This document shows positions 6,696 through 8,327 of a DNA stretch of 49,217 bases, piece after piece. Position 1 is the stretch's first letter; every line of letters starts with the position of its first letter. The position numbers and the translations under genes were made by a program. The DNA comes from Minisyncoccota bacterium (GTDB lineage Bacteria > Patescibacteriota > Minisyncoccia > UBA6257 > 02-FULL-45-10c), in NCBI GenBank assembly GCA_028715395.1, contig JAQURY010000004.1, positions 1 through 49,217 of the forward strand, written 5' to 3'. The notes below the pieces were generated by a model that had not been told where the DNA came from, searched no databases, and was given only the letters and a program-made list of their open reading frames with translations.

Positions 6696-8182
6696 TTTAT
6701 TTAGAGGATTTGATCCTGGTCCAGGATGAACGCTGGCGGCGTGGATAAGGCATGCAAGTCGTACGGAACAATTTGTGATTATATCAATGATTGTTTAGTG
6801 GCAAACGGGTTAGTAACACCTTGGTACATACCTCAAAGTCAGACATAGCTCCGCGAAAGCGGAGGTAATTTCTGATAGTCTCGCAAGAGTAAAGTCGCAA
6901 GACGCTTTGAGATTGGCCTAGGTCCGATCAGTTAGTTGGCGAGGTAATGGCTCACCAAGACTATGACCGGTAGGGGGGCTGAGAGGCTGATCCCCAACGA
7001 TAGCACTGAGACACGGGCTATACTCCTACGGGAGGCAGCAGTCGAGAATATTCGGCAATGGGCGCAAGCCTGACCGAGCGACGCCGCGTGCAGGATGAAG
7101 GTCTTAGGATTGTAAACTGCTTTTCTACAGGAAAAAGTTATTGATGGTACTGTAGGAATAAGTGGCTGCAAACTTCGTGCCAGCAGCCGCGGTAATACGA
7201 AGGCCACAAGCGTTATCCGGATTTATTGGGCGTAAAGAGTGTGTAGGAGGATTTTTAAGTTTGGTGTTAAATTCCATCGCTTAACGGTGGAGCCGCATTG
7301 AATACTGAAAATCTAGAGTGTGCGAGAGGTCAATAGAACTCATGGTGTAGGGGTGAAATCCGTTGATATCATGGGGAATACCAAAGGCGAAGGCATTTGA
7401 CTGGCGCATTACTGACTCTGAGGCACGAAAGCGTGGGGAGCAAAAAGGATTAGATACCCTTGTAGTCCACGCCCTAAACTATGTCGACTAGCTATCTCGA
7501 GTATCGACCCTCGGGGTGGCGAAGCTAACGCGTTAAGTCGACCGCCTGGGAAGTACGGCCGCAAGGCTAAAACTCAAAGGAATAGACGGGGACTCGCACA
7601 AGCGGTGGAGCATGAGGTTTAATTCGACAGTAAGCGAGGAACCTTACCAGGGCTTGAAATTCAACTGAATACTTTCCGAAAGGAGAGTAGTCTCTCAAGG
7701 ACAGTTGAACAGGTGCTGCATGGTTGTCGTCAGCTCGTGTTTTGAAATGTTCCCTTAAGTGGGGTAACGAGCGCAACCCTTATTCTGCGTTATATGTGTC
7801 GCAGGAAACTGCCCCTTTTTTGGGGAGGAAGGTGAGGATGACGTCAAATCAGCATGGCCCTCTGATGCCCTGGGCAACACTCGTGCTACAATGGCCAATA
7901 CAATGGGTCGCCAAATCGCAAGATGGAGCTAATCCCATCAAAAATGGCCTCAGTTCAGATTGAAGGCTGCAACTCGCCTTCATGAAGTCGGAATCGCTAG
8001 TAATCGCGGATCAGCTATGCCGCGGTGAATACGTTCTCGAGTCCTGTACTCACCGCCCGTCACTTCAAGGGAGCCAGGAGTACCTAACGTTCTGCTTCGG
8101 CAGTATTAGGGTAAACTTGGTGACATGGAAGAAGTCGTAACAAGGCACGCGTAGCGGAAGCTGTGCGTGGATCATTTTATTA
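6696..8182 (+). rRNA. rrs: 16S ribosomal RNA (orphan; 3' end lacks CCUCC)
   Basis: Conserved blocks: GATGAACGCTGGCGGCG, CTCCTACGGGAGGCAGCAG, GTGCCAGCAGCCGCGGTAATAC, ATTAGATACCC, AAACTCAAAGGAATAGACGGGG, GTCGTCAGCTCGTG, AAGTCGTAACAAGG. End coordinates inferred. Confidence 0.97.
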
Positions 8183-8327
8183 GAGATTTAAATATCTCAA
8201 AAAAAGTTTATCGCGAGCTTTAAATCGCGGTACCGCCGAAGAAGCGGTTGGGGCAACTAAAAAGTTTTCAATTCGTAAAAAGTTCAAGCTTCCAAAAGAG
8301 GCGGGTTTTTGATATAATTTATTTACA

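Follow-up and report, generated by a model that had tools for sequence, protein, structure and literature searches.

The window, by which we mean the whole stretch of 49,217 nt that was analysed, is the 49-kb contig that carries the only 16S rRNA gene in the assembly of the source genome, a Paceibacteria-like genome of the Patescibacteria whose assembly comprises 715 kb in 41 contigs (99.4% complete, 6% contamination). Genes for RF1, L31 and bS21, as well as ordinary genes, share this contig, indicating that the 16S gene does not lie on a stray rRNA contig. No match to 23S rRNA was found anywhere in the assembly. The features of the window are listed in Table 1.

Table 1. Features of the 16S-bearing window, with the evidence for each
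Feature	Positions	Strand	Evidence
16S rRNA gene, complete, single copy, without 23S linkage	6698..8182	+	Rfam RF00177, 1420.7 bits, model 1-1533 of 1533
Intact helix 45, capped by the GGAA tetraloop that KsgA targets	8146..8169	+	sequence, fold
16S 3' tail GATCATTTTATTA, single-stranded; TTTTA in place of anti-SD CCTCC at 8175-8179	8170..8182	+	sequence
Hairpin GAGAT-TTAAAT-ATCTC, 5 bp, abutting the 16S tail	8183..8198	+	fold -5.0 kcal/mol, z -2.1
bS21 (rpsU), 69 aa	22048..22257	+	PF01165 44.1 bits at 22054-22206, ORF
TANNNT at -12 (TAATTT) upstream of ATG 22765, predicted leaderless start	22753..22758	+	
TANNNT at -12 (TATAAT) upstream of ATG 2483, predicted leaderless start	2471..2476	+	
TAAAAT at -12 of RF1 gene 5105-5839 (-), predicted leaderless start	5846..5851	-	Pfam PCRF, RF-1
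AAGGAGGTG, lying within ORF 17161-17607 at its end; following ATG 17627, about 28 nt away, not usable	17590..17598	+	
Orphan SD region (ACGGAGGTCTCTGA-ATG) upstream of sigma-70-like gene 29259-30089 (-)	30092..30103	-	Pfam Sigma70_r2/r4

The 3' end of the 16S rRNA

In most bacteria the 13-nt tail of the 16S rRNA is GATCACCTCCTTA. The initial annotation had reported that, at this locus, helix 45 is intact and the anti-Shine-Dalgarno (anti-SD) sequence is missing from the 3' end, and we found the sequence that it quoted where it had been placed. Helix 45 pairs positions 8146-8155 with 8160-8169 around the GGAA loop (8156-8159) and folds as expected (-14.8 kcal/mol), and the source genome encodes a protein of the KsgA family, KsgA being the protein that modifies this loop. 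The hairpin abutting the tail, which on its predicted fold is a candidate mark for 3'-end processing, begins right at the tail end (8183), so that no CCTCC lies slightly further out.

A second 16S gene with a normal tail, a possibility raised by the same annotation, was looked for in the 715-kb assembly, in which only the one 16S gene was found; a second GTCGTAACAAGG lead was likewise found nowhere else in it. One exact GGATCACCTCCTT on another contig (C27) was considered as a hidden CCTCC tail and rejected, being the reverse complement of an SD-like sequence on the opposite strand and lacking helix 45.

Tails of related genomes

Alignment of the tails of relatives, which had been proposed as a check, bore out the reading of the locus. 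The congeneric assembly G001 (Ca. Paceibacterota STD1_217; L009, the same as L185), whose 16S gene is 94.1% identical, has an identical 14-nt tail (GGATCATTTTATTA), and a pattern search of named genomes gave five relatives with a similar tail, including this one and a Ca. Harrisonbacteria MAG (L184) with 82.2% 16S identity to the source genome. Within the order, all 28 readable tails were without CCTCC and without CTCC, including those of a single-contig genome (G047) and a three-contig genome (G003). Because the tail is identical in G001 despite 6% divergence of the 16S gene, and because no readable tail of the order has CCTCC, we regard sequencing error or a pseudogene as excluded for practical purposes as the source of the tail.

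In the class sample, 113 tails were readable, with an intact CCTCC in 38, a one-step loss (CTCC kept) in 16, a partial sequence in 7 and none in 52. By family, 27 of the 58 sampled were all-none and 19 all-intact, and in one family (f200) intact, one-step and lost tails occurred side by side. Across the phylum sample, helix 45 and the tail were readable in 266 of 389 genomes; 166 of these have exactly GGATCACCTCC, and among the other tails listed, many retain CCTCC and are altered just upstream of it (GAATCACCTCC, GGAATACCTCC). A few genomes outside the class have one-step tails (family f108; ACTTCC, ATCTCC). By these tail sequences, anti-SD loss is repeated and concentrated in this class, a conclusion drawn from counts of families and tail states rather than from a formal reconstruction on a class 16S tree. 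One genome of the sample (G246) has two 16S tails, on C2 and C6, of which one is lost (GGAACATATCC) and the other is canonical and of another type; this double tail is probably contamination.

The tails of the order (L001-L030) showed no free drift. A6 and T9 were invariant (28 of 28), T8 was present in 93%, entropy was at background only past about position 16, and the commonest tail, GGATCAATTAAAC, was conserved between families. This pattern suggests continued constraint on the replacement tail, most probably by 16S 3'-end maturation or contacts in the 30S platform and not by pairing with mRNA.

Signals at translation starts

Starts were predicted, and those with no other in-frame start within 45 nt were taken as clean (n=305 in the source genome); comparison genomes were samples of about 200 kb each. 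Weak SD 4-mers (GGAG, GAGG or AGGA) between -20 and -4 preceded 7.2% of the 305 clean starts, relative to 8.1% expected, and in E. coli K-12, run through the same pipeline as a control, the corresponding values were 38.8% and 14.1% (z 5.3). On these counts initiation in the source genome is not mainly SD-led, as had been claimed from the window. The link implied by that claim, in which loss of the anti-SD ended SD use, did not hold: class members that keep CCTCC (G529, G397, G513 and G453) were equally without weak-SD enrichment (z 0.2-1.4). Because these genomes share the disuse and keep the sequence, SD disuse in the class probably preceded decay of the anti-SD.

The genome's own tail gave no excess of pairing with the upstream region from -20 to -4 (5%, relative to 6% when shuffled, at the -4.5 kcal/mol level), and thus no replacement SD code is visible. 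There is no prfB frameshift motif, which would need an anti-SD. The perfect AAGGAGGTG that the initial annotation had offered as a sign of relaxed selection against SD-like sequence is real and has no usable start, but a single site says nothing on relaxed selection. In the source genome as a whole, AGGAGG is rarer than its mirror image GGAGGA (281 and 529 occurrences, respectively).

Leaderless genes are recognised by a TANNNT motif roughly 12 bp before the start (PMC3160421). In the source genome this motif peaked exactly at -12, where it preceded 36 of 173 operon-first genes (21%), relative to 8.5 expected and to a maximum of 18 in 500 simulations; inside operons, it was found in 9 of 118 genes. 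Elsewhere, it stood at this position in 12 of 41 genes of G192 (2.1 expected), 6 of 40 of G215 (1.3 expected) and 1 of 49 of E. coli. The CCTCC-bearing genomes had a weaker excess (15 of 166, summed, relative to about 6.5 expected), indicating that leaderless use is not exclusive to genomes without an anti-SD. Within the window, 6 of 21 clean starts had TANNNT at -12. The k-mers enriched upstream of genes (TATAAT/TTATAA) were promoter-like and peaked at this single position, and a -35 box was not detected upstream of the TANNNT genes. The RF1-like gene of the window is short, at 244 aa, and its start, which the TAAAAT at -12 supports, lies within the PCRF domain. A second RF-like gene (C20:26548-27213), in which no prfB frameshift motif is present, also starts inside this domain, so that both release factors would lack the N-terminal domain.

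Pairing of a U at -1 with A37 of the initiator tRNA is an established idea. The base at -1 was U at 50% of starts in the source genome, relative to 22% at internal Met codons (E. coli 27%; up to 84% in G453), and the initiator tRNA of this genome has both C1/A72 and A37. The region from -18 to +18 folded at -1.8 kcal/mol, relative to -3.9 for that from -60 to -25, and GC content was 23% between -20 and -1; start regions here are AU-rich and weakly folded, as in PMC3121790. In G047, of the same order (L141-L150), the base at -1 was A (65%) rather than U and there was no TANNNT peak, so that the start context differs even in this close lineage.

The view that the source genome has no SDs at all was given up, as about 4% of its genes have a full-length SD at canonical spacing, without an anti-SD. 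In a strict count of full-length SD motifs 4-10 nt upstream of an ORF-opening ATG, the source genome had 34, relative to 4-8 in spacing and mirror controls. The same count gave 14 (controls 1-3) in G215, 8-10 (controls 0-3) in three CCTCC genomes and about none in G047 and G453; the number of such SDs did not track the presence of an anti-SD. Of 50 A/G hexamers, AGGAGG ranked first and AAGGAG second in both the source genome and G215, and examples of orphan SDs are AAAAAGGAGGTGATAACGAATG (C27:17206) and AAAGGAGGTGATGAAAATG (C7:38690). SD-led genes clustered along the contigs (loci L035-L097), 19 of 43 having a second such gene at most 1.5 kb away (mean at random, 6.8), and contig composition did not split them off as one foreign cluster. 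Contig C13 of the source genome (L042) carries, at 11165 and 11894 (-), adjacent SD-led genes for secreted, beta-barrel-like proteins that are unusual in CPR, suggesting that this pair was acquired or mis-binned. G215, a complete anti-SD-less genome of another order (L151-L160), had SD-led genes at a higher density than any other genome sampled (21-22 in 200 kb), including a thymidylate-synthase-like gene, and, as it is one contig, contamination is excluded there.

We consider it likely that the orphan SDs are passengers, arriving by recent transfer from SD-using bacteria or mobile elements, or in mis-binned contigs, and that they do not form a working SD system, which is consistent with their clustering, with the several products that look outer-membrane or secreted and foreign to CPR, and with their equal frequency with and without CCTCC. 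However, they are present also in the single contig of G215, where a thymidylate-synthase-like gene is among those led, the contig with the 16S gene carries one as well, and Pfam matches were found for only 2 of 8 SD-led proteins scanned. An unlikely reading is that the order, once the anti-SD was lost, evolved a conserved AU-rich tail with a job of its own and that the perfect SDs are read by a protein or another RNA and not by 16S pairing; if true, this would be SD function without an anti-SD.

Loss of the anti-SD and comparison with known systems

Era binds GAUCACCUCC (PMC10582724), and none of 156 class genomes had an Era match above the curated cut-off, in agreement with the report that Paceibacteria mostly lack era (PMC12641178). 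With neither SD use nor Era, two known reasons to retain CCUCC have disappeared, also in the genomes that still have it. As a trigger for loss, absence of Era was rejected, since it extends across the whole class sample and cannot explain differences within the class. The ribosomal protein bS21 adjoins the anti-SD in other bacteria; its loss was also rejected as a cause, PF01165 being found both with and without CCTCC, with weak scores that make calls of absence unreliable. Nor was AT bias alone accepted, as the source genome (41% GC) and G215 (48%) are both without an anti-SD and G453 (34%) keeps CCTCC.

We favor, with a probability of about 0.66, an account in which the anti-SD was lost genuinely and anciently, after SD disuse, with initiation now at leaderless or AU-rich starts and with the remaining tail under constraint. 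Most genes in the class would first have stopped SD pairing, as the lack of weak-SD enrichment points to, with Era missing class-wide as observed. CCUCC would then have been free to decay, repeatedly; judged from the tails, that of the order's ancestor may have become GGAUCA-AUUAAAC and that of this family GGAUCA-UUUUAUUA, and the mature 16S 3' end is predicted to be GAUCAUUUUAUUA-OH. Many operon-first genes, marked by the TANNNT signal, would produce leaderless mRNA, with a -10 box at -12 to -7 and transcription from the A of AUG. Other genes would use the unstructured, AU-rich starts that we observed, at which the U before AUG may pair with A37 of the initiator tRNA or stack on it. The shortened tail would be kept for 3'-end maturation and 30S platform contacts. 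Two results count against this account: the orphan full-length SDs (34, relative to 4-8) are unexpected if pairing is long dead, and the leaderless signal is present in just one-fifth of operon-first genes and absent in G047.

We think it quite unlikely that the anti-SD has instead changed, with the AU-rich tail now pairing with a new upstream motif complementary to it (UAAUAAAAU-like). In the order, positions 6, 8 and 9 of the tail are conserved, and upstream regions are rich in TAAA and ATAA, but the duplex of the genome's own tail with the region from -20 to -4 is no better than with shuffled sequences and falls short of that with a distant control region, and the enriched k-mers are promoter-like, with their peak at one position, -12. 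An additional, unassembled 16S copy whose anti-SD is normal would suit both the missing 23S, which means that rRNA assembly is incomplete, and the approximately 4% of genes with strong SDs. We judge this very unlikely, however, since the 28 readable tails of the order lack the anti-SD, those of the single-contig G047 and three-contig G003 among them, and single-contig G215, from another order, also lacks it yet has SD-led genes. Although post-transcriptional addition of an anti-SD to the 16S RNA would explain the orphan SDs, most genes are without an SD and so would have little need of it, and we know of no bacterial precedent; we give it scarcely any credence. The chance that the tail is an artefact, whether through misassembly, a sequencing error or decay of a pseudogene, appears negligible: an assembly in 41 contigs with 6% contamination speaks for it, whereas the 16S gene is full-length and high-scoring, its helix 45 is intact, and an independent congeneric assembly has an identical tail.

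The occurrence of intact, half-decayed and lost anti-SDs within one class, and sometimes within one family, allows a testable comparison of what maintains the near-universal CCUCC, for which SD pairing, Era binding and 3'-end maturation are candidates. Since genomes that retain CCUCC also lack both SD use and Era, its retention must be due to another factor or simply to lag. For annotation, start calling that expects an SD will put starts in the wrong place across a large group of bacteria that are uncultured.

Among known systems, the Deinococcus-Thermus and Actinobacteria genomes with TA-led genes keep their anti-SD. The leaderless genes described in them, which make up roughly 20% of genes, have TANNNT some 12 bp ahead of the start (PMC3160421), as do the predicted ones of the source genome. 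Bacteroidia and Flavobacterium, with their SD-blind ribosomes, are similar in SD disuse and in the presence of bS21, but their 16S retains CCUCC, which bS21-bS18-bS6 hides (PMC9976891, PMC8710568), whereas here it is gone. In the 128 anti-SD-less prokaryotes reported in 2018, such as Carsonella, Hodgkinia, Chryseobacterium and Mycoplasma (PMC6107228), helix 45 is kept, the anti-SD is gone and genes have no upstream SD motif, as here apart from the approximately 4% of genes with a full-length SD. Those organisms are mostly Bacteroidetes, Tenericutes and insect endosymbionts. The source genome has 41% GC, so that the cause is not simply AT bias.

For CPR, loss of the anti-SD has been published before: genomes without CCUCC and SD pairing were described in 2024 as category iv, including Ca. 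Wolfebacteria, Campbellbacteria, Peribacter and Absconditabacteria (PMC10783764). In the literature searched, with subscription papers and preprints outside the search, we found no description of order- or class-wide loss in Parcubacteria. The source genome is like the category iv genomes in being a CPR genome whose 16S lacks CCUCC and which has no genome-wide SD pairing, and it shares with that category a variant common to relatives and a tail that does not pair with most mRNA leaders; as to the category's lack of upstream SD motifs, weak SDs are not enriched here, yet about 4% of genes have full-length SDs. Whereas that study described a handful of CPR genomes, the loss reported here is order-wide and repeated over the class, with intermediates, a constrained tail and orphan SDs.
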